Below, piece by piece: positions 1,008 to 18,508 of a stretch of 32,509 nt of DNA; the stretch's first letter is position 1; each line of letters starts with the position of its first letter. Made by a program: the position numbers and the translations under genes. This stretch comes from Deltaproteobacteria bacterium (GTDB taxonomy: Bacteria; Desulfobacterota; Binatia; UBA9968), in contig JACPSE010000112.1 in assembly GCA_016193465.1 (NCBI GenBank), positions 1 to 32,509 on the forward strand, read 5' to 3'. The notes beneath the pieces are model-generated. The model did no database searches, was not told where the DNA came from, and saw only the letters and a list, made by a program, of their open reading frames with translations.

Positions 1008-2417
1008 CTAAAAGTTTTCCTCTGGGATCTTCTCCCAGGGAAGCGCTTGGAGAATATCCTTTAACTGTTTTCTCTCCTTGACCTCATCGGGAACATCCAC
1101 CTTTTTGGCAAATGGCTGGCCCAGCGGCTTGGTGCAGTCAAACCCCACCTTGGCCCCTACCACGCCGGCAGCGCTCGGATCCAGGGCCGGACCCGTCAGG
1201 CCCGGCAGAACCAGCAGATCCCTGTCCCCCTGAAAGCGAGTTGCCAGGGCATGGAGAACTTCCCTTTCATCAAAGATGTCAACATCCTCGTCAAAAACAA
1301 AGGCGTGTTTGATAAGATAATGAGACATTAGACCTGCCACAAGCGCTGCCCGGCTCGATCCCTCAACCGAGTTCTTGATCTGGATGTAGAGATGAAAAAC
1401 GCCGCAACCTGACATCGGCACATAAACACTCTGCACCGTAGGGACCACCCTATGGATTGCCTCAAAAGCCATTCCTTCCCTGGCTACTGACGAAAGCCAG
1501 TGGGTATGGCCCACAGGGATGCTCTCCCAGTACGCCTCTCGCCTGTGGGTTATGGCCGTAACCCTTATAAACGGATTCCACTTTTGCGGTCCTGAGTAGC
1601 GGGTGTATTCCCCGAATGGCCCCTCTGGCTTCCTCTGTCCATGAGGAATGATGCCTTCGATCACCACCTCGGCATCTGCCGGAACCAAGAAATCCTTTCC
1701 CAGTGTCTCAGAGGAGGTCAGGCGCAACGGCTCTCCGATAAAACCTCCGGCAGTCGCATAGTGGCTGTCCCCATATGGAATCGCTGCCTCGCAGCCCAGT
1801 ACAACCAGAGGATGATGGCCAATCCAGTAAGCCGCCTTCATATCCTGCCCTCGTTCCTCATGCTTGGCAAAGATGAGGGCATTGTGGGTGGCGGGCGTCA
1901 TATAGACGCGGATTTCATCTCTCCCCCTGATCCATCCCCGGTGAATGGCGGAATTTTCTATTCCGGTGTCCGGGTCATAGCAGGTGAGAAAGCCGGCGGT
2001 GATATAAGGCCCCGGATCCATCGCATGATGGATCGGCGCAGGAAAGATGTTGAGGTCCACCTCTGCCCCGGTCTTGATTATCTGTTTAACCGGGGCCTTT
2101 TCCTTCGGCGCCACAACCGGCTGAATTCTCTTTTGCAGGCGATCGTTATAAGCATTTCCGATGCGCTGGGGGACCGTGTCTAAAAGAGCGGCGATTCGCC
2201 TTCGACTCGAATGAATAAAAGTGATTAGGTTGAAAGGAAATCTCGTGCCATCACTGCAAACATTATCAAAGATGATGACGGGAAACCTATTTGCCCTCTC
2301 CATCTCGCCGCTAAAGGCGGTGATCTCGTACGCCCGCTCTATCCGTTGCTTGACGCGAACTACCTCCCCAGGAGAAGAGGCTTCATAGGCTTCAAGGAAA
2401 CTTCCCAGGTCCGCCAT
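1008..2417 (-). CDS. UbiD-family prFMN-dependent decarboxylase
   Basis: The product is 469 residues when started at the ATG at 2417-2415 (MADLGSFLEAYEAS). An upstream in-frame ATG at 2549 would add 44 residues but lies upstream of the sigma-54-type promoter at 2462-2477, and its extension is not UbiD-like. R160 (in SAIHRG) and the EGPFGE motif with E265 and E270 match the Arg-Glu-Glu catalytic network of UbiD/Fdc1. The enzyme would catalyse non-oxidative decarboxylation or carboxylation of an unsaturated or aromatic acid using prenylated FMN in the cytoplasm. It is the first gene of a minus-strand operon with a zinc-ribbon protein and a second UbiD. Two different UbiD paralogues in one operon suggest either two successive reactions or a heteromeric enzyme. 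The exact substrate is not readable. Confidence 0.93.
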   Translation of the reverse strand: MADLGSFLEAYEASSPGEVVRVKQRIERAYEITAFSGEMERANRFPVIIFDNVCSDGTRFPFNLITFIHSSRRRIAALLDTVPQRIGNAYNDRLQKRIQPVVAPKEKAPVKQIIKTGAEVDLNIFPAPIHHAMDPGPYITAGFLTCYDPDTGIENSAIHRGWIRGRDEIRVYMTPATHNALIFAKHEERGQDMKAAYWIGHHPLVVLGCEAAIPYGDSHYATAGGFIGEPLRLTSSETLGKDFLVPADAEVVIEGIIPHGQRKPEGPFGEYTRYSGPQKWNPFIRVTAITHRREAYWESIPVGHTHWLSSVAREGMAFEAIHRVVPTVQSVYVPMSGCGVFHLYIQIKNSVEGSSRAALVAGLMSHYLIKHAFVFDEDVDIFDEREVLHALATRFQGDRDLLVLPGLTGPALDPSAAGVVGAKVGFDCTKPLGQPFAKKVDVPDEVKERKQLKDILQALPWEKIPEENF

Positions 2418-2461: not shown

Positions 2462-2477
2462 AGCAATAAACGGGCCA
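2462..2477 (-). promoter_or_regulatory. sigma-54-type promoter of the UbiD operon
   Basis: Read on the minus strand the sequence is TGGCCCGTTTATTGCT. It matches the -24/-12 consensus TGGCACG-N4-TTGCW with one change, and the GG and GC pairs are ten bases apart as required. The predicted transcript start near 2451 leaves a leader of about 34 bases before the ATG at 2417, which supports that start codon. Confidence 0.6.
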
Positions 2478-2581
2478 GACTAAGAACGGCCATTTGAGCT
2501 TATCTATCAGCCGTATGCCCGAAGCAAGCACTGAACTTTGATGGCTCATTGCTATCCAACGATTGGGTATTGGCAGTCTCT

Positions 2582-2601
2582 TTTTCCCATATTTGGGAAA
2601 A
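2582..2601. promoter_or_regulatory. palindromic candidate upstream activator site
   Basis: TTTTCCCA at 2582-2589 and TGGGAAAA at 2594-2601 are perfect inverted repeats around TATT. The centre lies about 107 bases upstream of the predicted plus-strand start and about 140 upstream of the minus-strand start, a usual distance for a sigma-54 enhancer site. A version with one change in 17 bases recurs at 7639-7655 before the nitrogenase-like operon. Confidence 0.55.
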
Positions 2602-2672
2602 CTGAACTATATGGCAGTTCACCACATCTTCGTAATGCGCCCGGCTCCTCGGAAAAAAAGAGACAAATGGAT

Positions 2673-2688
2673 TGGCATTTAACTTGCA
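2673..2688 (+). promoter_or_regulatory. sigma-54-type promoter of the aldehyde dehydrogenase/ABC operon
   Basis: TGGCATTTAACTTGCA fits TGGCAYR-N4-TTGCW with one change, with the required ten bases between GG and GC. The predicted start near 2699 gives a 27-base leader holding the GGAG ribosome site at 2716-2719, which is a well-formed arrangement for the ATG at 2726. Confidence 0.65.
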
Positions 2689-2725: not shown

Positions 2726-4204
2726 ATGGAAGATTATCGCGACAGGATCCAGGGGCTCCTACAGGGTAAGGAGTCGATGCTGATCAGAGGAGAATGGGCC
2801 AAAAGTCGATCCGGCCAATGCTTGTCGACGGATAACCCGGCCACGGAGGAGAAGCTCTGCGAGGTCTCCCTGGCATCGGAGGAAGATGTCGAGTTGGCCG
2901 TTGACGCCGCTGCCAGAGCTTTTCCTGGATGGCGTCAGGTTGATCCTTTCGAAAGGGCACAGAGAGTTTCAGCCCTGGCCAACGCGCTACGGCAGCATGC
3001 CGAGGATTTTGCCTTGCTTGATGCGATAGACTCCGGCAATCCTCTAACGGCTATGAAGGGGGATGTTCTGATGACCGCCGGGATCATGGACTATTTCGCA
3101 GCGCTTGCCGGCGAGCTTAAAGGACAGATCCTGCCTGGCAAACCCGGGATGCTGCACACTGTTTTCCAAGAGCCTTACGGAGTCGTGGTGCGGATCATTC
3201 CCTTCAATCACCCGATTTTTTTCGCCGCCTGCAAGATCGCGGCGCCGCTTGTTGCCGGCAACACAGTGATCCTCAAGCCCGCCGAGCAGACCCCCCTCTC
3301 CGCTCTGGAGATGGGAAAGTATGTCAAGGAATTTTTTCCTCCTGGAGTGGTGAACATCGTCACCGGCGATGGCCCAATAACCGGGTCTGCTTTGGTGCGG
3401 CATCCCAAGACCAGGCGCATCGCCCTCACCGGCGGAGTAGACACTGGCCGCGCGGTGCTGAAGCTCGCGGCGGAGGGGGGCATCAAAAATGTGACCTTGG
3501 AATTGGGCGGCAAAAACCCCATGATCGTTTTCCCGGACGCGGACATGGAAAAGGCAGTGGAGTCCGCGGTCGTGGGAATGAACTTTCATTGGTGCCAGGG
3601 GCAATCCTGCGGTTCGACCTCGCGCCTCTTCCTCCACAAGAAGATCCACGACGAGTTTCTCGACCGTTTGATTCAGCGCACCGGCCGCATAAGAATCGGT
3701 CTTCCCCTTGATTCCCGGACTGAGATGGGCTGTCTCGTCTCCAAAGATCAGTACGATAAGACCTTCCGATATATTGAACTGGGTAAAAAAGAGGGGGCTA
3801 AGCTGGTAGCCGGCGGTTCCAGGCCAGAGGGTGAGATCTTTTCAAAGGGGTACTTTGTCAAGCCCACGATCTTCGATCGCGTGGAGATGTCCATGCGCAT
3901 TGCCCGCGAGGAGATCTTTGGCCCGGTGCTTTCCGTTCTTGTCTGGGAGGACTATGAAGAGGTCGTCGAGAAGGCCAATAGCGTTGACTACGGACTCACC
4001 GCCAGCGTCTGGAGCCGAGACCTCCGGCTGGCCTATCAAACAGCGGAACGCTTGGAGGCAGGATATCTGTGGATCAACGGTTCGAGCCGCCATTTTCTGG
4101 GTGTGCCCTTTGGCGGGTTCAAGCAAAGCGGGATTGGCCGCGAGGAATCCGTCGAAGAGCTCTTAAGTTATACTCAGGTGAAGGCGGTGAATACGGCCCT
4201 TTAG
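2726..4204 (+). CDS. NAD(P)-dependent aldehyde dehydrogenase
   Basis: The 492-residue product oxidises an aldehyde to its carboxylate with NAD(P). The start ATG at 2726 has GGAG six bases upstream; a TTG two codons earlier is less likely. Family landmarks are the NPATEE motif near residue 37, the catalytic-site Asn N161 in PFNHP, the general-base Glu E259 in LELGGK and the nucleophile Cys C295 in GQSCGS. The length is normal for the betaine aldehyde/hydroxymuconic semialdehyde branch. It is the first gene behind a sigma-54-type promoter and is followed 51 bases later by an ABC importer, so its aldehyde may derive from the imported compound. The substrate is unknown. A second paralogue lies at 13438. 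Confidence 0.93.
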   Translation: MEDYRDRIQGLLQGKESMLIRGEWAKSRSGQCLSTDNPATEEKLCEVSLASEEDVELAVDAAARAFPGWRQVDPFERAQRVSALANALRQHAEDFALLDAIDSGNPLTAMKGDVLMTAGIMDYFAALAGELKGQILPGKPGMLHTVFQEPYGVVVRIIPFNHPIFFAACKIAAPLVAGNTVILKPAEQTPLSALEMGKYVKEFFPPGVVNIVTGDGPITGSALVRHPKTRRIALTGGVDTGRAVLKLAAEGGIKNVTLELGGKNPMIVFPDADMEKAVESAVVGMNFHWCQGQSCGSTSRLFLHKKIHDEFLDRLIQRTGRIRIGLPLDSRTEMGCLVSKDQYDKTFRYIELGKKEGAKLVAGGSRPEGEIFSKGYFVKPTIFDRVEMSMRIAREEIFGPVLSVLVWEDYEEVVEKANSVDYGLTASVWSRDLRLAYQTAERLEAGYLWINGSSRHFLGVPFGGFKQSGIGREESVEELLSYTQVKAVNTAL

Positions 4205-4255: not shown

Positions 4256-5230
4256 ATGGCAAGAGGAAGATACGTTTTCGCTTTTTCGATCTATCTCCCC
4301 GTGATTCTAGCTCTCTTGTTGATTGCCGCTCCCAACTCAAACGGTCAACTCCAAACCCTGCGGCTGGCCATTCCGCAGAAGGGACTCTTCGACACGACCC
4401 TCCCCACTCTTATGGCCGACAAAAAAGGATTTTTGAGAGAAGAAGGGATCCAAGCGGAAATATTCTGGACCAGCGGGGGCGCGGAGACCGTTCGGGTGGT
4501 CACGGCCGGGAGCGCTGACATAGGACTTGCCACCGGCACCGAGTCGGTCGTCACAGCGTTCATGAAAGGCTCCCCTGTGAAAATTGTATCTGCCGAGATC
4601 ACTGGCTCGCCCGATCTATTCTGGATTGTCCGCGCTGATTCGCCATATAAAACTATCAAGGACTTAGATGGCAAGTCCGTAGGTTACAGCAGGGCAGGGT
4701 CATCGACCCACATGATCATTCAGCTTGCGACGGAGCACTACAAGATCAAGCCAAACCTCGTCGCAGTGGGCGGCGTCCCTGATTCTTTTACTGCGGTCAT
4801 GACGAAACAGGTCGACGCCGGGTGGTCGTCGCCGCCAAATTTCCTCGACAGGATTGAAAAGGGAGAAATTAGGATAGTTTTTAAGGCTGCCGAACTGGAA
4901 ACCACAAAAGATGTAACTCTACGGGTGAACTTTGCCAATGCTGTTTTCTATGAGAAAAATGCGAGATTGGTCAGGGGCTTTGTTCGAGCGCTGAAGAAAG
5001 TCCTCGATTACATGTATAACAATCCAAGGGAGACCATTGCATTTTTTGCCGAGGTTAATAAATTCCCCCTTTCGATGGCAGAGGCGGGATTTAAATTTTT
5101 TCCGAAGGAATCGTTGGTCCTGTCTCCCTTGAGCAGGGTTGATTTTTCCGTTGATCTTGCGCTAAAGCTGAAAATGATAACCAAAGCTCCGACCCCGGAA
5201 GAGCTGAAAAAGCTCATCGCTGTGGAGTGA
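4256..5230 (+). CDS. ABC importer substrate-binding protein, NMT1/SsuA type
   Basis: The 324-residue product has a signal peptide (residues 1-30: a short basic start, a hydrophobic core, then a likely cut near SNG/QL), so it is exported and binds substrate outside the membrane. The segment LRLAIPQKGLFDTTLPTLMA, the GFLREEGI motif and the following GSADIGLATG are typical of the NMT1/THI5-like and SsuA/TauA families that bind sulfonates, pyrimidines or aromatic acids. AAGGAG precedes the ATG by three bases. Two permeases and an ATPase follow directly, giving a complete importer. In catabolic islands such proteins often bind organic acids, but the ligand cannot be read from sequence. Confidence 0.92.
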   Translation: MARGRYVFAFSIYLPVILALLLIAAPNSNGQLQTLRLAIPQKGLFDTTLPTLMADKKGFLREEGIQAEIFWTSGGAETVRVVTAGSADIGLATGTESVVTAFMKGSPVKIVSAEITGSPDLFWIVRADSPYKTIKDLDGKSVGYSRAGSSTHMIIQLATEHYKIKPNLVAVGGVPDSFTAVMTKQVDAGWSSPPNFLDRIEKGEIRIVFKAAELETTKDVTLRVNFANAVFYEKNARLVRGFVRALKKVLDYMYNNPRETIAFFAEVNKFPLSMAEAGFKFFPKESLVLSPLSRVDFSVDLALKLKMITKAPTPEELKKLIAVE

Positions 5231-5236
5231 GCCGTC

Positions 5237-5983
5237 TTGAAAGGTTTGCCGGAGAAAATCCTAAGATGGATTTTTATAGCCACCGTTCTTACAACTATTG
5301 AAGTCCTAGTCAGATTTAACCTCGTTGACAGGATATTTCTAACATCGCCATCTCTGATTGCCGCGGCGGCATGGCAGAGCCTTTTTGCCGGCGACCTGAT
5401 AAGCCTGTCTTTGAAAACCGTCTCTGCGGTCGGAATGGCCTTTGTGATCGCCGCCGGTATTGGATTATCTGCCGGCTATGTCTTATGGAGATATCCCCTG
5501 TTCGGAAGAGCCTACGATGAGCTCCTAGGCGCTCTTTTTGCCTCCCCCTTAATCCTCCTCTACCCTATCTCCCTCGTCATTTTGGGCAGGGGGATAAACG
5601 CCATTATAGCCATGGCCTTCCTCCCTGGAATGATTCCCATCGCGCTGAATACTCATCAGGGCCTAAGGGACGTCAATCCGACCTACCTCAAGGCGGGAAG
5701 AGGCATGAGACTGACCGAGCGGCAGATCATGAGGCATGTCCTCCTCCCCGCGGCCTCGCCCCTCATATTCGGCGGTTTGAAGCTGGGGCTCACTTATATC
5801 CTCATTTCTGTTATTGCTCTTGAGTTTTTGGTCGAAATAGGTGGCATAGGCACCCTCGCCTCCAAGGGATATTTCTGGTTCAACACGGAGGAGCTTTACG
5901 TGGGCGTAGCCGGCGCTATCTTTCTGTCGATTATCTTCGTTTATTTATTAGGCAAGGCTGAGTCACGGCTCTTTAGCTCATGA
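5237..5983 (+). CDS. ABC importer permease, SsuC/TauC type (first)
   Basis: The 248-residue membrane protein has about six hydrophobic segments. The cytoplasmic coupling loop around residues 155-175 (YLKAGRGMRLTERQIMRHV then LLPAASP) is the EAA-type loop that docks on the ATPase. The start is a TTG at 5237, nine bases after GGAG, because no in-frame ATG lies near the expected amino terminus. It overlaps the next permease gene by four bases (ATGA), so the two are translationally coupled. With the neighbouring permease it would form a heterodimeric channel. Confidence 0.92.
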   Translation: MKGLPEKILRWIFIATVLTTIEVLVRFNLVDRIFLTSPSLIAAAAWQSLFAGDLISLSLKTVSAVGMAFVIAAGIGLSAGYVLWRYPLFGRAYDELLGALFASPLILLYPISLVILGRGINAIIAMAFLPGMIPIALNTHQGLRDVNPTYLKAGRGMRLTERQIMRHVLLPAASPLIFGGLKLGLTYILISVIALEFLVEIGGIGTLASKGYFWFNTEELYVGVAGAIFLSIIFVYLLGKAESRLFSS

Positions 5984-6735
5984 ACAGGGTCACGAAACCT
6001 TTTCTGATCCAGGCAGGCACCGTGCTGCTCTGCATGATGATCTGGGAGGCAATCGTAGAGAGCAGGCTTCTCTTCGAAGGAATCGTGCCAAGCATCTTTG
6101 AGATTATGAAGGCGGCTTGGTTGCAGATTTCAACGGGCTTCATATTCCCGCACCTCCTCGTGACGATGTATGAGGCCTTTGTCGGGTTTGCGTTGGCCGC
6201 GTGTCTGGGAATAGCCATAGGCATCGCCCTTGGCGTGGAGCCGTTTTTAAGGAGGGTTTTCGAACCGCTGATTCTCTATTTTGCGGCGACGCCAAAAATC
6301 ATCCTGTACCCAATTTTTCTCATGATGCTCGGCGCCAAGTTCGAATCGAAGATGGCAATGGCCGGGGTATCAGCCTTTTTCCCGATCGTGATCAATGCCA
6401 CCGTAGCAGCGGCAGGTATCGACAGGATTTTTATCAAGGTAGCCAAATCGGTCGGCGCCTCAAGCTTCCAGACCTTTACGAGGGTCTACCTGCCATCTAC
6501 GTTGCTGCCGGTATTCACAGGAATGAGACTCGGAATGGGCGCCGCCTTCGTGGGCGCCATTCTCGGCGAACTCAAGGTCTCGAATGCAGGACTCGGGTTC
6601 ATCATTATCCAGGCATTCAATCACTTTAGAATCCCTGAGATGTATGCCAGCATCCTGCTGACATTTTTTCTTGCCGCTTCCGTCAATTTTGCTATGACGC
6701 TGATGTCGGCGCGCTTGAGAAGATTTGCCTACTAG
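5980..6735 (+). CDS. ABC importer permease, SsuC/TauC type (second)
   Basis: The 251-residue integral membrane protein also has about six hydrophobic segments. Its coupling loop (FIKVAKSVGASSFQTFTRVY followed by LPSTLLP) matches the EAA motif of this permease family. The ATG overlaps the stop of the preceding permease gene. The two permeases are similar in size but clearly different in sequence, as expected for a heterodimer rather than a recent duplication. It belongs to the importer encoded by 4256-7535. Confidence 0.92.
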   Translation: MNRVTKPFLIQAGTVLLCMMIWEAIVESRLLFEGIVPSIFEIMKAAWLQISTGFIFPHLLVTMYEAFVGFALAACLGIAIGIALGVEPFLRRVFEPLILYFAATPKIILYPIFLMMLGAKFESKMAMAGVSAFFPIVINATVAAAGIDRIFIKVAKSVGASSFQTFTRVYLPSTLLPVFTGMRLGMGAAFVGAILGELKVSNAGLGFIIIQAFNHFRIPEMYASILLTFFLAASVNFAMTLMSARLRRFAY

Positions 6736-6749
6736 CCAGCACCCCTCTC

Positions 6750-7535
6750 ATGAAAGACTCCGCGCCGATTCTTGAGATCAGAAACATCTCCAAAGAGTAC
6801 CCGGGTGTCACAGCTATCGACAACGTGAGCCTGAAGGTTCATCAGCATGAATTTGTCTCCATCATCGGGCCAAGCGGATGCGGCAAATCGACCCTCCTTG
6901 AAATCATAGCTGGCCTCCTCGCCAAGACATCCGGGGAGGTGTTCATCAAAGGTCATGCCGTAAAGAATACCCACGCATCAATAGGCATCGTATTTCAGCA
7001 GGAATCGATTTTCCCTTGGCGCAGCACTCTGGAGAACATAGAATTCGGCTTGGAGATGCACGGCGTATCCAAACAGGAGCGGCGAAACAAATCACGCCGG
7101 ATGATCGAGATCGTAGGTCTCCAGGGCTTTGAGGATCGCTATCCCGGTGAGCTCTCCGGCGGGATGAAGCAGAGGGTGGCCATCGCCCGCGCCCTCGTGA
7201 TGGAGCCGGAAATCCTCCTCATGGACGAACCCTTCGGCGCCCTTGACGAGCAGACAAGGATCATATTAGGCGAGGAGCTCTTGAGGATTCAGCAGGAGAT
7301 AGGTCAGACCATATTATTCGTCACCCACAACATCCATGAGGCTGTCCAGCTATCGGATAGGGTCGTGGTCATAACTGCCAGACCGGGCAAGATCAAGGCT
7401 ACGATCAGCGTAGACATTGAGCGCCCACGAACCTCAGAAGTTATCGCTTTGGAAAAATTCGGCAAGCTCGTCGGCAAGATATGGATGTTGCTTCGAGAGG
7501 AATCGCTCAAGGGCTTCAAACAGACAGCGCTGTAA
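6750..7535 (+). CDS. ABC importer ATPase, SsuB/TauB type
   Basis: The 261-residue cytoplasmic ATPase has all the expected motifs: Walker A GPSGCGKST (residues 40-48), a Q-loop near 83-84 (VFQQES), signature LSGGMKQR (135-142), Walker B ILLMDE (155-160) and the switch histidine H193. It would power the importer formed with the two preceding permeases. It is the last gene of its operon. A 282-base gap then separates it from the nitrogenase-like operon. No sharp terminator hairpin was found after its stop codon. Confidence 0.95.
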   Translation: MKDSAPILEIRNISKEYPGVTAIDNVSLKVHQHEFVSIIGPSGCGKSTLLEIIAGLLAKTSGEVFIKGHAVKNTHASIGIVFQQESIFPWRSTLENIEFGLEMHGVSKQERRNKSRRMIEIVGLQGFEDRYPGELSGGMKQRVAIARALVMEPEILLMDEPFGALDEQTRIILGEELLRIQQEIGQTILFVTHNIHEAVQLSDRVVVITARPGKIKATISVDIERPRTSEVIALEKFGKLVGKIWMLLREESLKGFKQTAL

Positions 7536-7638
7536 GGCTCTCTCGCCAAAGACGCCCTTTGCTCAATCGAGGAGTGCATGTCCAATCGTGAATCCTATGG
7601 TTTGAAGTGACAAGGTAGCCAGCCGACCGTCCTCGCCG

Positions 7639-7655
7639 TTTCCAATATTTGGGAA
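7639..7655. promoter_or_regulatory. candidate upstream activator site, second copy
   Basis: TTTCCAATATTTGGGAA differs at one position in 17 from the palindrome in the divergent region at 2582-2601. Its centre is about 168 bases before the transcript start predicted from the -24/-12 element at 7789. Two further perfect palindromes lie between them, TACCTAGGTA (7716-7725) and CCGGAGCTCTCCGG (7758-7771); their roles are unknown. The rest of the 7536-7817 gap shows no gene. Confidence 0.5.
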
Positions 7656-7788
7656 TTTACCGCTAACTCTTTATACGATTTAGGAAACGATCCCATTTTT
7701 TCCCTGGCCCTTGCCTACCTAGGTAAAGCCTCTGTCGGTCCCTTAAGGCGTTTTCTGCCGGAGCTCTCCGGATATCTTTCAATTAGGC

Positions 7789-7804
7789 TGGCATATATCT
7801 TGCT
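7789..7804 (+). promoter_or_regulatory. sigma-54-type promoter of the nitrogenase-like operon
   Basis: TGGCATATATCTTGCT is a full match to TGGCAYR-N4-TTGCW with ten bases between GG and GC. The predicted transcript start near 7815 is only about three bases before the ATG at 7818, so the message would be nearly leaderless; no Shine-Dalgarno sequence is visible before that ATG. Confidence 0.65.
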
Positions 7805-7817
7805 GCCCCGACTTGTT

Positions 7818-9341
7818 ATGTCGAAACTCAAATCGAAAGGTTATCGTTGGCTTCCTCTCAGGGAGGCATGGGAGTCGCTCCCTGAGATCGATACTGCCGA
7901 GTTTAATGAACTCTCTCCTGGCTACGAAGGAGTCTGGTGCCGTTACCTTTGGACCACCACCTACTTCCAGCAATTCTTTCGTGACGTGGTCGTTGTCACG
8001 CATGGCCCGCTTTCGTGTGTTGCGGCCGTAAAGAACTTTAAGCAGACCCATTACTCTCTTCACTCGGCCCTTCCTTTTGCCCATTCCCCTTGCAGCAACA
8101 TGGATGAGAATGCCGTCATCATGGGGGGAACCGACATTTTGGCCGATACCTTGAGGCGGGTGGACCGGGAGTACCGTCCTAAGCTCATTATCATTACGGA
8201 TACGTGCGCCTCGTACATGATTCACGATGACGTCGACGCGGTGATTGTAGAGATTACCCCTGAGGTCGACGCAAAAATCGTTTATACCCCAAGCCCAGGC
8301 TTCGCCGGGGTACAGTGCGGCAAGGCGGTGGAGGCGATGGGTCCCTTGGTGGCCTCGCTTATGGATCCGCCCGGCGAAGTCGACCCAGAGGGGGTCAACG
8401 TGCTGGGCCTCTACTATGATACCCGCTTCACAGAAGCTGAGGGACGGAAGCACGGGGGCAACACTGAAGCTTATCGCCATTTGATCGAGGGTATCGGCCT
8501 CAAACTCCACCGGATTATGAACGCGGGTGACCACGATTATCTGCGCACTGCCCCAAATGCCCGGGTCAATGCAATTCATACCGCCATGTGGGGCTATCCG
8601 GTGGCGCGGGCGATGGAGGAACAATTCGGCACTCCTTGGCTCAAAAGGCAACTCCCTATGGGACTTGACGGAATCCGGGCCTGGGTCATGGAGTTGGCTG
8701 AGTTCATGGGCCGGGAAGAAGAAGCAGAGAAGTTTGTCCGATCCGAGGAGGACAAGCTCACTTCCCTGTTTGAAGAGACCAAGAAATGGGTAGAGGGAAA
8801 ATTCCTTCTCGTGGAATGTTCCAGAAATTCTCAGGCAAAGTATGGGGAGATGGTCGCTTACGCTCGTCTTGGCGAAGAGCTAGGGATGAAGCCTTATGTC
8901 TATAGCCTCCATCCCATGGAGTTTAAGTCCCAGACGGATGATCTGTTCGCCGTTGCTGACGTGGAGGGTTTTAACCCACCGGTTTTGGTCGGCCCCTATC
9001 CATACCACGAACCAGTCAACGTAGAAGACGTGATGGCGGATCTCGGAGTGGATCAGGATCAATGTCTCTATATTTACGACGATGTATTCCCATATGCCAA
9101 GAGCGGTAGCTTCGACCCATGTAATGTCCCCCGTTACACGACCTCGTCACAGATGAAGCGTGTCAAGGGATCATCCTTTCTCGGAGTGGGCTATGCCGGC
9201 ACGGCAGCCACCTATCGAGGGTTTATAGAAGCCGTGAAGGTATCACGGCGAAAATCGAGCCCAACCTTCTATGGCCGGGTATGGTCCTCCACCCCATTTG
9301 AATTCCAGTTCGCCAGCCAAAAGGAGAGAACCGCCTCATGA
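7818..9341 (+). CDS. nitrogenase component 1-type oxidoreductase, NifD-like subunit
   Basis: The 507-residue protein aligns by eye with NifD. Cysteines C41 (GVWC), C67 (GPLSC) and C130 (TDTC) sit where NifD has C62, C88 and C154, with the same 26-residue first spacing, and would bind an Fe-S cluster at the subunit interface. The FeMo-cofactor ligands are gone: in the segment NAIHTAMWGYPVARAMEEQF the position of C275 is T255, and near GVGYAG the position of H442 is L455. So it is not an N2-fixing enzyme but a DPOR/COR/CfbD-type reductase with an open active site. The ATG at 7818 is chosen; a TTG at 7800 falls inside the promoter. It overlaps the NifK-like gene by four bases. The substrate is unknown. 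Confidence 0.9.
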   Translation: MSKLKSKGYRWLPLREAWESLPEIDTAEFNELSPGYEGVWCRYLWTTTYFQQFFRDVVVVTHGPLSCVAAVKNFKQTHYSLHSALPFAHSPCSNMDENAVIMGGTDILADTLRRVDREYRPKLIIITDTCASYMIHDDVDAVIVEITPEVDAKIVYTPSPGFAGVQCGKAVEAMGPLVASLMDPPGEVDPEGVNVLGLYYDTRFTEAEGRKHGGNTEAYRHLIEGIGLKLHRIMNAGDHDYLRTAPNARVNAIHTAMWGYPVARAMEEQFGTPWLKRQLPMGLDGIRAWVMELAEFMGREEEAEKFVRSEEDKLTSLFEETKKWVEGKFLLVECSRNSQAKYGEMVAYARLGEELGMKPYVYSLHPMEFKSQTDDLFAVADVEGFNPPVLVGPYPYHEPVNVEDVMADLGVDQDQCLYIYDDVFPYAKSGSFDPCNVPRYTTSSQMKRVKGSSFLGVGYAGTAATYRGFIEAVKVSRRKSSPTFYGRVWSSTPFEFQFASQKERTAS

Positions 9342-10723
9342 TGGAAGTTGTTCCGCTCGCAAGCGACACAAAAATGCGCGACCAGTTTCAACCGGGAGCA
9401 TTTATCGGCTCCATCTTCATCACCAGCGGTATTCTCGACACGGTCAATGTGTATCACGGCGTCTCAGGCTGCAATGCCATGGCGCAGCATTTCCGCGGCG
9501 ACCTGGTGCCTAACGGGGGTTATGTCCCAATTGTCGCAACCGGGTTTTTGGAGACCGAGGCGATCATGGGAGGGGCCACCAAACTGGAGAAGACCCTCAG
9601 AGACATAGTGGATGGCAAGTTAGGGAGAAAGCTGCCCCAATGTATCTGGATCTCCATGAGCGACTGCCCGGCTATAGGCGGGGAAGATATTGAAGGCGTA
9701 GCGCGGGGAATCGCGGCAGAAACAGGAACAAGAATCGTCGCCATCGAAAATGCCGGATTCAAGGGAGGGTTGGCGCGCGGGGCGGAGCTGGCCCTGTGCA
9801 AGATCCTCGATGAGGTGGTCGAACCCTACGACGGGAAGCGGCAAGGGATCAACATGATTGCCCCCTTTCTGATGGGAAGCGCCAATTGGCCTTTTGACAT
9901 CGATCACATGGTGGAACTCCTGCAAGCAGCGGGTGTGAAGGTTAATCTCGTCCTCTCACGCAACATGTCGTTTTCCGATCTGCAGCGTTTCCCCGCCGCC
10001 GAGGCTAACCTGCTCCTCACCTATGACGAGATGCCGGACTTCCAAAAGAGGAGCGAGTCTCTCGGTGTGCCCACCATAACGGATGACCCGGTATTGCCCT
10101 ATGGGATCGGTAATACCGAAAAATGGCTCCTTAATCTCGCGGAGCGTTTTGGCGACGCAGAGAAGGCGAAGCGCTATTTGGTCGAAGCGATGGGCGATGT
10201 GAAGAGAATCCTCTACCGCAACTTCAATTTTAGCTGGATGGCAAGCTTCCTGAGCGACAAATACGCGGCGGTTTGCGGCTATGCCCCCTTTGCCGTGGCC
10301 ATGACCCGCTACCTCTTCCACGACCTCAATATCAGGGTCAAGGTCGTAGGCTTGTGGAGCGAGACCGAGGCCGGGCTCAAGAAAGGCGTGAGCCTGCTGG
10401 AGCCTCTTGGAGATTCGCTGGACTTTACCGTTTTGGAAAATCCTACTTACTTCCAGTTGGGCGAGGCAGTCAAAGAGGCGAAGGTCGACTTCGTCATCGG
10501 CTCCATGCAGGATAAACCCCTTTTCAAGGGTCTCGGCGCGGCCCATCTGAATCTGGCTGGCTTCTACTACTTTAATAACTACAACTTCGTGCCCTGGCCT
10601 TTAGTGGGAGTCAAAGGCTCGCTCAGACTCTTCTCTGAGATCTCCAGGGTGGTGGAGGATGCTTTCTATGAGAGCGAGGCGTGGAAGAAACTAGCCTTTA
10701 TTCCGGGAGACGGAAGGGTTTGA
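9338..10723 (+). CDS. nitrogenase component 1-type oxidoreductase, NifK-like subunit
   Basis: The 461-residue product is the partner of the preceding NifD-like subunit; the ATG overlaps that stop codon (ATGATG) and GGAG lies upstream. C45 (GVSGC) and C110 (MSDC) match NifK C95 and C153. The NifK C70 position (CQPLGA) appears as FQPGAF here, so that ligand is missing. With three cysteines from the partner, five of the six P-cluster ligands remain, which favours a [4Fe-4S]-type cluster over the 8Fe P-cluster. The protein has no membrane or export signal. The heterotetramer would receive electrons from the tandem NifH-like protein encoded at 11597. A CoA-thioester dehydrogenase gene follows after seven bases. 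Confidence 0.9.
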   Translation: MMEVVPLASDTKMRDQFQPGAFIGSIFITSGILDTVNVYHGVSGCNAMAQHFRGDLVPNGGYVPIVATGFLETEAIMGGATKLEKTLRDIVDGKLGRKLPQCIWISMSDCPAIGGEDIEGVARGIAAETGTRIVAIENAGFKGGLARGAELALCKILDEVVEPYDGKRQGINMIAPFLMGSANWPFDIDHMVELLQAAGVKVNLVLSRNMSFSDLQRFPAAEANLLLTYDEMPDFQKRSESLGVPTITDDPVLPYGIGNTEKWLLNLAERFGDAEKAKRYLVEAMGDVKRILYRNFNFSWMASFLSDKYAAVCGYAPFAVAMTRYLFHDLNIRVKVVGLWSETEAGLKKGVSLLEPLGDSLDFTVLENPTYFQLGEAVKEAKVDFVIGSMQDKPLFKGLGAAHLNLAGFYYFNNYNFVPWPLVGVKGSLRLFSEISRVVEDAFYESEAWKKLAFIPGDGRV

Positions 10724-10730
10724 GCAGGAT

Positions 10731-11597
10731 ATGGAAAAGGTTGGCATTATCGGCAGCGGACTCATGGGCACTGGAATCGCCTTTGTGGTGGCGCGGCAGA
10801 TAGAAGGCGAGACCGTAGTCGTCGACGTGGATGAAAAGATCCTGGAGAAGAGCCGGCGCACGGTGGAAGGCCTTGCCGCTCGCGCGGTGGAGAAAGGCCA
10901 GGCCACGCAGGAGGAGGCCGGAAAATGGCTCAAGCGGCTCAACCACACGACCGACAGAAGCGACCTCAAGGGCGCCGCGTTCATCATTGAGGCGGTGCCC
11001 GAAGATCTGGCGCTCAAGTGCCGGCTTTTTACGGAACTCAGCGAAATCTGCGCGCAGGAAACCATCCTCGCCAGCAATACCAGTGGACTTCCAATAACCC
11101 AGATAGCCGCGGGCGCGCGCCATCCTGAGCGGGTTATCGGCACCCACTTTTTCAATCCCGCCCCGGTGATGAAACTGGTGGAGATCGTGCGTGGCTACGC
11201 CACCAGCGAAACAACCATCCAAAAGACGAGAGGGTTTTGTTCTCGCCTGGGAAAAGAGTCCATCCTCGTGGAGAAAGACTACCCAGGCTTCATTACCACG
11301 CGAATCGGGAACGGTTACCTGGCAGAGGCCCTGCGCTGCCTTGAAGAAGGCGTGGGCTCAGCCGGAGATATCGACAAGGGTTGTCGGCTAGCCTACAACT
11401 ACCCCATGGGGCCGTTTGAGCTGATGGATCTGGTCGGCCTGGATACGGTCTTACGGGTCTTCGAATCTCTCCATCAGGTGTACGGAGAGAGATTTCGCCC
11501 CTCCCCCCTGCTCCGTCAGATGGTGTCTGCAGGTCGGCTGGGCAGGAAATCCGGCTCAGGCTTCTACAATTACGCTAAAAAGGAGAAAGGCGCCTGA
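10731..11597 (+). CDS. 3-hydroxyacyl-CoA dehydrogenase family protein inside the nitrogenase-like operon
   Basis: The 288-residue protein has the NAD-binding motif GSGLMGTG (residues 8-15), E87 in the IEAVPE motif, S118 (SNTSG), H139 (THFFNP) and E151, matching the substrate and catalytic residues of 3-hydroxybutyryl-CoA dehydrogenase; the 21-residue Ser-His and 12-residue His-Glu spacings are conserved. The usual Asn of the PGF-x-x-NR motif is Thr (PGFITTR, about residue 190), so the substrate may differ. It would oxidise a 3-hydroxyacyl-CoA with NAD, or act in reverse. It lies seven bases after the NifK-like gene and shares one base with the tandem NifH-like gene, so it is firmly part of the operon. 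This ties the reductase to CoA-thioester chemistry. Confidence 0.9.
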   Translation: MEKVGIIGSGLMGTGIAFVVARQIEGETVVVDVDEKILEKSRRTVEGLAARAVEKGQATQEEAGKWLKRLNHTTDRSDLKGAAFIIEAVPEDLALKCRLFTELSEICAQETILASNTSGLPITQIAAGARHPERVIGTHFFNPAPVMKLVEIVRGYATSETTIQKTRGFCSRLGKESILVEKDYPGFITTRIGNGYLAEALRCLEEGVGSAGDIDKGCRLAYNYPMGPFELMDLVGLDTVLRVFESLHQVYGERFRPSPLLRQMVSAGRLGRKSGSGFYNYAKKEKGA

Positions 11598-13351
11598 TGG
11601 AACAGCCGAGTCGTCAACGTTATCTCATTGTCTATGGCAAGGGGGGTATCGGAAAGACTTCAGTAGCAACCAATCTCGGTGAGGCGCTTGCCCACGAGCA
11701 AGGGCGAAAGGTCATGCTTGTTGGCTGTTCGCCCAAGACCAGTCTCATTGACCTTTACGACCTCACCGGCAACGTCCTCCCCATCCTCGATCTGAAGCGC
11801 AAAGAAGGGGTCAGCGGCCAAAATATCGGCAAGGCGGTATGGCATAGTCCCGAAGGAATTATTTTAACGGAGACCGGCGGACCGGAGCCGGGCATCGGCT
11901 GTGCCGGCGTGGGTTTGCCAACCGCTTTTGGCGAGATAAAGAAATACAAAGGACAGATCGAAGACTTCGATAAGGTGGAGTACAGCATTTATGACCTCAT
12001 TGGTGATGTGGTCTGCGGCGGATTTTCCACTCCGCTGCGCGGCGGGGGGCGAGAGGTGCTCATTATCATCAGCGGTGAGTTGATGGCCATCTACGCCGGC
12101 AACAATATCCTCAGGGCAGTGAAGGCGGTGGGCGGCGACCTGAGGGTTTTGGGATACGTTGTCAACATGCGCGGCGTCCATCGCGAGCAAGAAATCGTTG
12201 ACGCCTTTGCCGCCAGAACGGGAGTGCCCATTCTGGCCTCTATCAAACGGGATCCCATCACTTTCAAAGAGGCCGAGCGGCTCGGCGGACCCGTGGTCCG
12301 CACCGTTTCTGACTCAGAGATCGCCGCCACGTTTCGCGAGCTCGCGCAAAAGGTGGAGCAAGGTCCACCCAAGACGGATCCCCGTCCCATCGACAGCTAT
12401 GATGATCTGTTCCATATGTTCCTAAGTTTTCAGAGCCTCCAGGAAGAGGCGGGAAAAGAGGGGCGGAAAGCCTACAAAAGCAACATCCCGACCAAGCCTG
12501 TAGAACGGGAAAAGTCGCTCAGGATCTCCGTCTATGGGACAGGCGGCATCGGCAAATCGACTGTCTCCGCCAATGTGAGCGCCGCTCTGGTACTGATGGG
12601 AGAAAAGGTCTTTCAGATCGGCTGCGACCCGAAACATGATTCCATTGCCAATCTCTGCGGCGGGCTGAAGCCCACGATCTTGGACGAGATTCAAAAGCGG
12701 GGAGGCGCGCGGGCCATGAACCGCGAGATCCTCAAGCAGTTGATTTTCCCCGGCGTCAACCACAACAGCCATCTCTTTGGGAGTGAGTGCGGCGGCCCGG
12801 TGCCCGGCAAGGGGTGCGCGGGAAAGGGCGTGGATCTGGCCTTAAAGCTGTTTGAAGATCACGGGATCATGGAGGAGTATCAGTTCACGCTTATCCTCTA
12901 CGACGTCCTGGGAGACACTGTCTGCGGCGGATTTGCCCGTCCGTTGAAGTACACCCCGCAGGCTTACATTGTCGCCAACGGGGAGGCGGCCTCTCTGACT
13001 CAGGCAATGAAGATCGCTCAGAGCATCCAGGCGGCAGGCCGGCGTGGTGTGGACGTCGGCATTGGCGGGGTCATCAACAACATGCGCGGCGTTCCACATG
13101 AAGAGGCGATAGTGGAGGAGGCCTTTGGCGCGGTCGGTGTCCCGGTCATCCATCATATTCCCCGCTCCGAGTTGGTCCAGACGGCGGAAAACTTGAGAAC
13201 CACGGTGGTGGAGTCCTTTCCAGAGTCCGAGCAGGCGCAACGCTATATAGAGCTGGCTCGAAAGCTGCGCGAGAACACGCAACGGCACTCCCTCACCCGC
13301 GACGTTCTTTCAAGCCGGGAGATTGTGGCGATTGTGAATAAATACACTTAA
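11597..13351 (+). CDS. tandem NifH-like reductase: two nitrogenase iron-protein domains in one chain
   Basis: The 584-residue protein contains two full NifH-like ATPase domains (about 8-255 and 307-565) joined by a charged 50-residue linker. Each has a P-loop (GKGGIGKTS at 14-22; GTGGIGKST at 314-322), two cluster cysteines (C102 and C140; C407 and C443) and the DxxGD switch (D133/D137; D436/D440). NifH, BchL, BchX and CfbC normally form homodimers holding one [4Fe-4S] cluster, so this chain could fold into a one-chain pseudo-dimer. The halves are unequal: the first keeps the signature Lys (K15) but has CSPK where D39 should be, while the second keeps CDPK (D344, D348) but has T315 at the signature Lys. 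The ADP-ribosylation Arg100 is V105 and K410. It should pass electrons to the NifDK-like pair at the cost of ATP. Confidence 0.92.
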   Translation: MEQPSRQRYLIVYGKGGIGKTSVATNLGEALAHEQGRKVMLVGCSPKTSLIDLYDLTGNVLPILDLKRKEGVSGQNIGKAVWHSPEGIILTETGGPEPGIGCAGVGLPTAFGEIKKYKGQIEDFDKVEYSIYDLIGDVVCGGFSTPLRGGGREVLIIISGELMAIYAGNNILRAVKAVGGDLRVLGYVVNMRGVHREQEIVDAFAARTGVPILASIKRDPITFKEAERLGGPVVRTVSDSEIAATFRELAQKVEQGPPKTDPRPIDSYDDLFHMFLSFQSLQEEAGKEGRKAYKSNIPTKPVEREKSLRISVYGTGGIGKSTVSANVSAALVLMGEKVFQIGCDPKHDSIANLCGGLKPTILDEIQKRGGARAMNREILKQLIFPGVNHNSHLFGSECGGPVPGKGCAGKGVDLALKLFEDHGIMEEYQFTLILYDVLGDTVCGGFARPLKYTPQAYIVANGEAASLTQAMKIAQSIQAAGRRGVDVGIGGVINNMRGVPHEEAIVEEAFGAVGVPVIHHIPRSELVQTAENLRTTVVESFPESEQAQRYIELARKLRENTQRHSLTRDVLSSREIVAIVNKYT

Positions 13352-16366: not shown

Positions 16367-17212
16367 TTGAATAGAAAAGAGCGAGAAGCGGTGCTGCAAG
16401 ATCTGGCCACGATTCGGAAGCTCGCCGGCAAGCTCCGAGAGCGCTCTGGAATCCCGGTTGTCGAAAGCTGCGCCAGATGGTGTGAGACCTATACCCAGGT
16501 AGCCCAATGGTCTCTTGGCGAGGGGGAGCGCTTTGAATTCATGCCCGCTCAGGAGGAGACAGCGATGGAAACAAATAAAAAGACGGTCGCCGGCAAAAAC
16601 GGCCGGCCTCCCAGGTGGGGGATGGTGATAGATCTAAAGCGCTGCATTGGCTGTCAAAGCTGCACGATAGCTTGTAAGGTAGAGAACGGCACTCCCCCCG
16701 GCATCTTCTGGATGAGGGTCTTGGAGAAGGAGGAGGGGAAATATCCTCTAGCGCGCAAGCTCTTTTTGCCTGTCCGCTGCAATCATTGCAGCGATCCGCC
16801 CTGTGTCCCCGTCTGTCCGACAGGGGCAAGCTATAAGCGAGAAAAAGACAACCTCGTGTTGATCAATCAGGATAAATGCATCGGCTGTCGCGCCTGTATT
16901 GTAGCCTGCCCGTACCAGGTTCGTTTCCTTGCGGAAGACTCCAACGGATACTACGGTGAAGAGCTCACTCCCTACGAGGCCAAAAGCTACCAGAAATGGC
17001 AGCCCCGGACCGTGCAAAAGTGCACCTTCTGTGTCGACCGAATTGACGGCGGCTTGGAGCCCGCGTGTGTTCAGACCTGCCCGACCAGGGCGCTGGTCTT
17101 CGGCGATCTTAATGATCCAGAGAGTGAGCTGTCCAAGCTCGTGAGAGAGAGATCCCACTTTCAGCCGCGCGCTGAACTGGGGACGGATCCCTCTCTCTAC
17201 TATGTCACGTAA
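16367..17212 (+). CDS. four-cluster ferredoxin subunit of a molybdopterin oxidoreductase (DmsB/PsrB-like)
   Basis: Sixteen cysteines in four groups (CIGCQSCTIAC starting at C93, then CNHCSDPPCVPVC, CIGCRACIVAC and CTFC...CVQTC) would bind four [4Fe-4S] clusters and pass electrons between the catalytic and membrane subunits. The frame is open from a TTG at 16367, one base after the ligase stop, giving 281 residues. An ATG at 16565 with AGGAG six bases upstream would give 215 residues, starting METNKKTV, and fits the family length better. The 66 extra codons look coding and include C35 and C39, so either the subunit has an extra amino-terminal segment or translation starts twice. The NrfD-like and catalytic subunit genes follow. 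Confidence 0.88.
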   Translation: MNRKEREAVLQDLATIRKLAGKLRERSGIPVVESCARWCETYTQVAQWSLGEGERFEFMPAQEETAMETNKKTVAGKNGRPPRWGMVIDLKRCIGCQSCTIACKVENGTPPGIFWMRVLEKEEGKYPLARKLFLPVRCNHCSDPPCVPVCPTGASYKREKDNLVLINQDKCIGCRACIVACPYQVRFLAEDSNGYYGEELTPYEAKSYQKWQPRTVQKCTFCVDRIDGGLEPACVQTCPTRALVFGDLNDPESELSKLVRERSHFQPRAELGTDPSLYYVT

Positions 17213-17233
17213 TATGAAAGCTTTCAGCGGTCA

Positions 17234-17288
17234 GCTTCCTAGCTTCCCAGCCTTCCAGCCGGGCTAGGACGCTAGAAGGCTAGGAGGC
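17234..17288. repeat. imperfect 27-base inverted repeat
   Basis: Bases 17234-17260 and 17262-17288 are inverted repeats with 20 of 27 positions matching and one base between, built of CTAGCTTCCCAGC-like units. It lies between the ferredoxin and NrfD-like genes. It could form a long hairpin in the message and set the ratio of the two subunits. Confidence 0.55.
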
Positions 17289-17306
17289 AGAAAGGCCTGG
17301 TGCTGT

Positions 17307-18164
17307 ATGATGCATGAGTTCAACATGGAGCTGAGCAGCCAAGAGGAGTGGTCTTGGCTTGTGGCGATCGACCTATTTCTCGGCGGCCTGGGTGGAGGCC
17401 TTTTCCTGCTCTTTCAAAATCTTGACCTCCCACCTGTTACTGGCCTTTTGTCCCTCGGGCTGGTGATCCTTGGAGGCCTGGTCCTGTTAGCCGAGTTAGG
17501 ACATCCCTTGAGGGCGTGGCGCGCCCTGGCGAGGCCGCAGACCTCCTGGATTAGCCGGGGGATGATCTCTGTTTTTGTCTTTATCATTGCCGGGCTTCTC
17601 TATATTGCCCCATCGTTTTCTGTTTTCTCTTGGTTGCCGTGGAGCCCCACCAGTTCGGGCGGGAGGGCCCTCGGGGTCGTTGCGGGAATCTGCGCCTTCC
17701 TAGTTACTCTTTATCCGGGTTTTGTCCTTTCCGCCTCGCCCTCTATACCCTTCTGGAACAGCCCGCTGTTGCCGGTGCTATTTTTCTCCCAATCCCTTCT
17801 AGGGGCAAGCGGCTTAGTGCTTTTGCTTTCTCCATTCGGGTTTGACGGCCAGGCTCTTCAGGGCTTTTTCTCCCTGGCGGCGCTTCTCATAGTAGCCAAT
17901 TTCATCTTGATGACGATTCATCTTTGGACTTTGAAGCGCTCAGGACTTGCAGCCCGGGAAGCGGTAAGTCTTTTCAATCGCGGTTCGTTTGGCTGGACCT
18001 TCAGGGCTGGAGTCGTTCTGATAGGAATGATTCTTCCCTTCATAGTAGTAGTATGGGTTCCATCCGCGGTGGTGTTAGCCGGCGCTTTCATTCTCGTCGG
18101 CAGCCTCCTGTTCCGCTACTGCGTGTTGAAGGCCGGGGTCTATGTTCCCTTTGCCTTAATATGA
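17307..18164 (+). CDS. NrfD/PsrC-like membrane subunit
   Basis: The 285-residue protein is mostly hydrophobic, with about eight membrane segments, and carries the ELGHPLRAWRALARPQTSW motif near residues 70-90 that is typical of NrfD/PsrC quinone-interacting subunits. It would anchor the ferredoxin and molybdopterin subunits at the membrane and exchange electrons with quinone. The start could be either ATG of the pair at 17307/17310. The ribosome site is weak. This arrangement of subunits resembles polysulfide, thiosulfate and phenylacetyl-CoA oxidoreductases (PsrABC, PadBCD). Confidence 0.85.
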   Translation: MMHEFNMELSSQEEWSWLVAIDLFLGGLGGGLFLLFQNLDLPPVTGLLSLGLVILGGLVLLAELGHPLRAWRALARPQTSWISRGMISVFVFIIAGLLYIAPSFSVFSWLPWSPTSSGGRALGVVAGICAFLVTLYPGFVLSASPSIPFWNSPLLPVLFFSQSLLGASGLVLLLSPFGFDGQALQGFFSLAALLIVANFILMTIHLWTLKRSGLAAREAVSLFNRGSFGWTFRAGVVLIGMILPFIVVVWVPSAVVLAGAFILVGSLLFRYCVLKAGVYVPFALI

Positions 18165-18170
18165 GCGGCG

Positions 18171-18506
18171 ATGGCGCAGCCAAACCAGGAAGAGAACTTC
18201 ATGGAAGAGGGCAACGTAGCCATCATTAACGTCAAGTTCATGGGCGATCTGCGGGCTCTGCTCCAGCAGAGGGCCATCACGCTTGCTTTGCCTCCGGGAA
18301 GCACCGTGGGAGACCTCTTCGCATCGCTCTGCAACAGCTATGGTGAACCCTTCACCAGCCGGGTCTTCAGCGGCTCAGGAGCGCTCCAACACTATATTCT
18401 TGTTTTCCTAGACGGTCAGAATATTAAAGAGCTGGGTGGCCTGGGGGCAAGGCTGGGAAATGGCGAGGTAGAGATCGTCATGCTCCCCATGTTTGAAGGA
18501 GGATAA
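18171..18506 (+). CDS. MoaD/ThiS-family sulfur-carrier protein
   Basis: The 111-residue product (101 if started at the ATG at 18201, which has an AGGAAGAG sequence before it) has the beta-grasp pattern (VKFMGDLRALL, LALPPGSTVGDLFASL, ILVFLDGQNI) and ends in Gly-Gly (MFEGG), the thiocarboxylation site of MoaD and ThiS. MoaD supplies sulfur for the dithiolene of molybdopterin. The gene stands between the NrfD-like and the catalytic subunit genes and ends two bases before the latter, so it may be a dedicated cofactor-synthesis partner. No other molybdopterin synthesis gene is present in the window. Confidence 0.85.
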   Translation: MAQPNQEENFMEEGNVAIINVKFMGDLRALLQQRAITLALPPGSTVGDLFASLCNSYGEPFTSRVFSGSGALQHYILVFLDGQNIKELGGLGARLGNGEVEIVMLPMFEGG

Positions 18507-18508
18507 CT

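Follow-up and report, generated by a model that had tools for sequence, protein, structure and literature searches.

A predicted two-way sigma-54 control region between a UbiD operon and an aldehyde dehydrogenase/ABC transporter operon, with a putative shared tandem enhancer and a probable wider regulon

Two operons transcribed away from each other across a short spacer raise the question of whether they are switched separately or together and, if together, by which protein and alongside which other genes. The window, the whole stretch of 32,509 nucleotides analysed here, is contig C50 in full, from a metagenome bin of 4.5 Mb estimated to be 100% complete, and in it a putative two-way control region of 308 bp separates a UbiD gene from an aldehyde dehydrogenase gene. 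To the left, on the minus strand, lie a UbiD-family decarboxylase of 469 aa (1008..2417; Pfam UbiD_N/UbiD/UbiD_C) and, downstream in the same operon, a second UbiD-family gene, an open frame cut by the contig end (1..668, minus strand) that by eye resembles the second UbiD gene following the first one in both L099 and L100. To the right, on the plus strand, the aldehyde dehydrogenase gene (2726..4204; Pfam Aldedh, E 1.8e-156), preceded by a TGGAG ribosome site, opens an operon that continues with an NMT1/SsuA-type ABC transporter (4256..7535), whose binding protein (4256-5230) is assigned by Pfam NMT1 and whose two permeases (5237-5983 and 5980-6735) and ATPase (6750-7535) are named from their translations.

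Predicted promoters of the two operons

Sigma-54 promoters share the consensus TGGCAYN5TTGCW, with GG at -24, GC at -12 and 10 bp between, and their transcripts start about 12 nt past the -12 box. Two such elements, each with GG-N10-GC, lie in the spacer exactly as an earlier note on this DNA had claimed: TGGCCCGTTTATTGCT before the UbiD operon (2462..2477, minus strand; TGGCCCG-TTTA-TTGCT read from 2477 to 2462), with a predicted start near 2451, and TGGCATTTAACTTGCA before the aldehyde dehydrogenase/ABC operon (2673..2688, plus strand; TGGCATT-TAAC-TTGCA), with a predicted start near 2699. When both strands of the 32.5-kb window were ranked with a sigma-54 matrix trained on 32 promoters, none of them from C50, these sites scored 18.1 and 18.0 bits, behind a plus-strand site at 7789 (22.2 bits); the fourth-best position reached 12.8 bits only, and none of 20 shuffled windows scanned with the matrix held a site as good as either. 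The two predicted promoters thus match the claim exactly and stand far above chance. The host, on whose rpoN the earlier note had made its reading depend, carries a single such gene (one match, E 1.9e-61), identified, like the activator genes discussed below, in a metagenome bin. No sigma-70-like promoter was found in the control region, and IHF-like one-mismatch matches occur at 2505 and 2553, their counts in the window being those expected by chance.

The leftward promoter had also been used to choose 2417 over 2549 as the UbiD start codon. The nearest UbiD orthologues (75-76% identity) belong to the closest orthologous loci, in the Deltaproteobacteria-named bins RIFCSPLOWO2_12_FULL_60_19 (G006) and NC_groundwater_1447 (G010); in the open reading frame listing of both, the codon equivalent to 2417 is the first in-frame start after a stop, and the choice of 2417 is settled because the orthologues begin there.

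A predicted paired enhancer and its conservation

Upstream activating sequences are palindromes some 80-200 bp upstream of the start, often paired at helical spacing. The palindrome between the two promoters, here called UAS1 and taken as the primary enhancer site (TTTTCCCATATTTGGGAAAA; 2582..2601), has perfect 8-bp arms, TTTTCCCA-TATT-TGGGAAAA, and its distances of about 140 and 107 bases from the predicted starts at 2451 and 2699 had been given correctly. The perfect palindrome occurs once in the genome. A matrix made from sites upstream of the candidate activator's gene in other genomes ranks UAS1 as the best motif site of the window, at 21.6 bits; the next reaches 11.2 bits, and the maximum over 20 shuffled windows was 17.3. 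The description of the site as one palindrome nevertheless needs amendment, since a weaker conserved inverted repeat, CTATCCAACGATTGGGTATT (UAS2, the secondary enhancer site; 2552..2571), had been overlooked 30 bp away. UAS2 scores poorly alone (<9 bits) and is kept at the same 30-bp distance from UAS1 in both G006 and G010. As UAS2 is conserved together with the promoters and the palindrome in two other genera, the predicted enhancer is a tandem pair, UAS1 plus UAS2. The centres of UAS2 and UAS1 lie near -110 and -140 from the UbiD start and near -138 and -108 from the dehydrogenase start, and both these positions and the 30-bp spacing fit what is expected of upstream activating sequences.

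Conservation across the three genera picks out exactly the elements proposed, namely sigma-54 promoters on both sides and a shared enhancer between them. What the spacers of this genome, G006 and G010 have in common is chiefly the start codons, both -24/-12 elements, the palindrome GTTTtCcCAAATaTgGGAAAA and the second repeat ATTCcCAAtcGTTGGATG; the rest is mostly unalignable. The palindrome scores 18.4 bits in G006 and 18.5 bits in G010, and none of the 1000 shuffles made for each came up to these values. G006 retains the divergent arrangement of UbiD and aldehyde dehydrogenase, and in G010 a binding-protein gene sits between the control region and the dehydrogenase. The leftward sigma-54 element is conserved in both, at -59 from the UbiD start. 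In neither does the enhancer stand evenly between the two starts, and the more distant UbiD homologues (33-60% identity) are without such a control region.

The rightward element bears on the improbable alternative that the palindrome serves one promoter only, the other being a relic or answering to a different activator. A single enhancer need not drive both directions, and in G010 the rightward element is weaker (TGGCATTTCTCTTGCG), with a -12 box that ends in G and a different binding protein as the first gene; in G006, however, both promoters are conserved with good boxes (rightward, TGGCATTCAACTTGCA), and no second strong motif copy lies between the promoters in any of the three genomes. 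We infer that one enhancer-binding protein could switch both operons, as the earlier note had suggested. Still less weight, next to none, falls on the reading that these are chance matches without functional promoters: the -24/-12 consensus is short, and the strict pattern TGGCNYN5TTGCW has 74 matches in the whole genome against 38 for the reversed control, so that about half of them are expected by chance, but every element is conserved in three genera, the rank of the promoters in the window is unmatched in shuffles, and the enhancer motif recurs.

Recurrence of the motif and a candidate activator

Recurrence begins on the contig itself, with a third sigma-54 promoter that the earlier note, right about the other two, had overlooked together with its own motif copies. 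This promoter, TGGCATATATCTTGCT (7789..7804, plus strand), precedes a nitrogenase-like operon (7818-13351) with two Oxidored_nitro subunits (7818-9341 and 9338-10723) and a 3-hydroxyacyl-CoA dehydrogenase-like gene (10731-11597). Upstream of it lie an enhancer-motif copy, GTTTCCAATATTTGGGAATT (7638..7657; 14.9 bits), and, about 31 bp downstream of that copy, a partner repeat (7669-7688); the tandem pair aligns with G006 and G008, in which the promoter element is also conserved.

Several features of these neighboring genes can be recorded separately. The nitrogenase-like operon includes a 584-aa protein of two fused NifH domains, with P-loop and cysteine motifs in both. Close NifD-like relatives (84-87%) occur in only three of 34 other genomes of the order, and the NifD-like orthologue in G010:C20 (L195) has one in-frame TAA within the match, possibly the mark of a decayed copy or an assembly error. 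Farther along, 16367-21031 encodes an Fe-S protein, a membrane subunit and a molybdopterin oxidoreductase of the thiosulfate/arsenate-reductase-like superfamily, with an adjoining CoA-ligase gene; the oxidoreductase reached no specific-enzyme family cut-off.

Across the genome the enhancer motif reads TTTYNCA-N4-TGNRAAA and is mostly paired about 31 bp apart, the palindrome of the window being its strongest copy. In the regions around the 74 strict sigma-54 matches, a matrix derived from the candidate activator's upstream sites in other genomes places a motif of at least 12 bits upstream of 21 sites and downstream of one, the shuffled expectation being 1.6; for 15 of the 20 best sites, the second-best is 29-32 bp away. 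Such counts come out inflated when the matrix is trained on the same promoters, and no matrix of that kind enters the final numbers. Seed-free searches for gapped palindromes recovered the same half-sites separately in the promoter set and in the activator set: TTCGCA, TTCTCA and TTCCCA followed by N4 occurred 15, 14 and 14 times at the 74 promoters versus at most 8 in shuffles, and TTCTCA-N4-TGAGAA stood in the candidate activator's upstream region in eight of nine other genomes versus at most 3. Arm permutation was tried and set aside: at least 12 of 16 positions matched at 17 promoters, where permuted arms gave 2.1 on average, yet the permuted maximum was also 17, because permuted arms can recreate the motif, and the claim was therefore rested on the other-genome matrix and the seed-free search. 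Loose copies of the palindrome show no genome-wide excess over the reversed control (48 vs 49 per strand) and are thus informative only through their association with sigma-54 sites.

The shared-enhancer reading gains from this recurrence at other sigma-54 promoters, where the motif copies stand upstream and are paired at a spacing of about 31 bp. About 20 such promoters carry the motif, so the UbiD/dehydrogenase switch probably belongs to a regulon of roughly that size, the nitrogenase-like operon of C50 included, and is not private to two operons; this regulon is probably lineage-wide. The genes behind motif-bearing promoters include two for 2-hydroxyglutaryl-CoA dehydratase D-components (benzoyl-CoA reductase-like), another UbiD, a 2-oxoacid:ferredoxin oxidoreductase, Fe-S and multihaem cytochrome proteins, an OsmC protein, a TctC receptor and GntR regulators. 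The same distribution makes it very improbable that the palindrome binds a repressor or other factor and stands between sigma-54 promoters incidentally. Many regulators typically recognize symmetric palindromes with A/T flanks, and at the candidate activator's own gene the motif stands on the downstream side of the promoter, in a repressing position; genome-wide, however, the enrichment is upstream of sigma-54 sites, not downstream, and mostly in 29-32 bp pairs.

Which protein would read the shared enhancer is suggested by the activators' own upstream regions. Genes for enhancer-binding proteins number about 20 in this genome, several being incomplete at contig ends, and none was found on C50. 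When the upstream regions of 17 activator genes were scored, none exceeded 11.9 bits except that of C185:6642-7991, where a strong motif stands at -39 (TTTTCGCAATTATGAGAAAT; 21.5 bits). The product of this gene, a candidate two-component activator, resembles NtrC-family proteins in having a receiver, a Sigma54_activat AAA+ domain with a GAFTGA loop and a Fis-type HTH, and NtrC1 and ZraR are among its closest solved structures; a GAF/PAS histidine kinase gene adjoins it (C185:8188-10239). Orthologues across the family are 72-91% identical, and all 12 readable C185-type genes, this genome's included, carry, between a sigma-54-like element and the start, motif copies that score 12.7-21.5 bits, usually as a pair 30-33 bp apart; upstream of a 64% relative, L172, no such motif was found (7.3 bits). 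The presence of the same motif and a sigma-54-like element before the gene suggests autoregulation of the C185 activator and its orthologues, and the position of the sites downstream of the activator's own promoter would make that autoregulation negative. From the sharing of the motif we infer that C185:6642-7991 is the best candidate reader of the enhancer. The step is partly circular, since the orthologue sites in the matrix behind the count of 21 of 74 were picked with the motif learned in this genome; the seed-free search is exempt.

Two further observations concern contig C185 and the activator paralogues. Near the candidate activator on C185, a motif pair at 12616 and 12646 (L103 12413-12906) marks another divergent arrangement, flanked by a cytochrome c/COX1-type oxidase pair and a universal stress protein gene. 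A second, receiver-less activator type of about 316-345 aa occurs across the family (G000:C14, G006:C154 and others), and the C14 gene has its own palindrome variant, CCTCTCAAAGTTGAGG, upstream.

An appreciable minority of our confidence goes to a real shared enhancer that is read by some other protein, such as the receiver-less C14-type paralogue, or by several related activators. With about 20 activator genes there is no shortage of possible readers, the C14-type and C185 activators share about 60% identity over AAA+ and Fis and a similar recognition helix, and the site variants TTCCCA, TTCTCA and TTCGCA could mean more than one; against this, only a weak, different palindrome (6.5-7.9 bits) stands upstream of the C14-type gene, and only at the C185 type did the gene's own upstream region show a strong site with the motif's TTTT flanks. 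We return to the reading that C185 is the best candidate and posit that sigma-54 RNA polymerase would sit closed at the two oppositely directed -24/-12 promoters, that one AAA+ enhancer-binding protein would bind the tandem palindromic pair, loop the DNA and open both, and that this activator, encoded off the contig and most plausibly by C185:6642-7991 with its kinase, probably controls its own gene too. The reading as a whole, a two-way sigma-54 region with a shared tandem enhancer, an off-contig activator and a wider regulon, is in our judgment likely on the sequence evidence.

Known arrangements and the possible reach of the regulon

A shared enhancer for divergent sigma-54 operons is an already known arrangement, of which the present case is a further member. 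In Desulfovibrio vulgaris Hildenborough, the divergent sigma-54 operons orp1 and orp2 have one palindrome set between them and one activator, DVU2106, with negative autoregulation established (PMC3897727). Our locus likewise has palindromes between two divergent sigma-54 operons, with dependence on a common activator predicted from sequence; it differs in that DVU2106 is under sigma-70 control whereas the candidate's own gene here has a sigma-54-like element, in that IHF sites were shown there whereas the IHF-like matches here are at chance level, and in that our contig has no activator gene and other genes are predicted to be controlled as well. A second parallel comes from type III secretion in D. 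vulgaris (PMC4641369), where two divergent sigma-54 operons have a common upstream region with one activator motif, the DVUA0100 sites predicted by comparative genomics; there, in contrast, the activator gene lies inside one of the operons, and the genes differ. The literature searched yielded neither a signal nor a DNA motif for the C185-type clade, nor any match to the motif as a letter string.

Of more interest than the arrangement are the genes in the predicted regulon and its breadth. Tentatively, and at somewhat less than even confidence, we propose that the C185-type two-component activator, self-controlling and conserved in this family of Deltaproteobacteria-named genomes from uncultured bacteria, regulates anaerobic and redox metabolism broadly and that it would reach, by way of one tandem enhancer of about 31-bp spacing, UbiD decarboxylases, 2-hydroxyacyl-CoA dehydratase/benzoyl-CoA reductase-like enzymes, the double-NifH nitrogenase-like operon, a 2-oxoacid oxidoreductase, cytochromes and transporters. 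In the records found, the lineage is known only from metagenome bins, so sequence is what its regulation has to be read from. With a motif, a named candidate activator, about 20 promoters and three operons on a single contig, the predicted regulon is concrete and testable, and it may help to tell when the nitrogenase-like enzyme and the UbiD-type decarboxylases are switched on.
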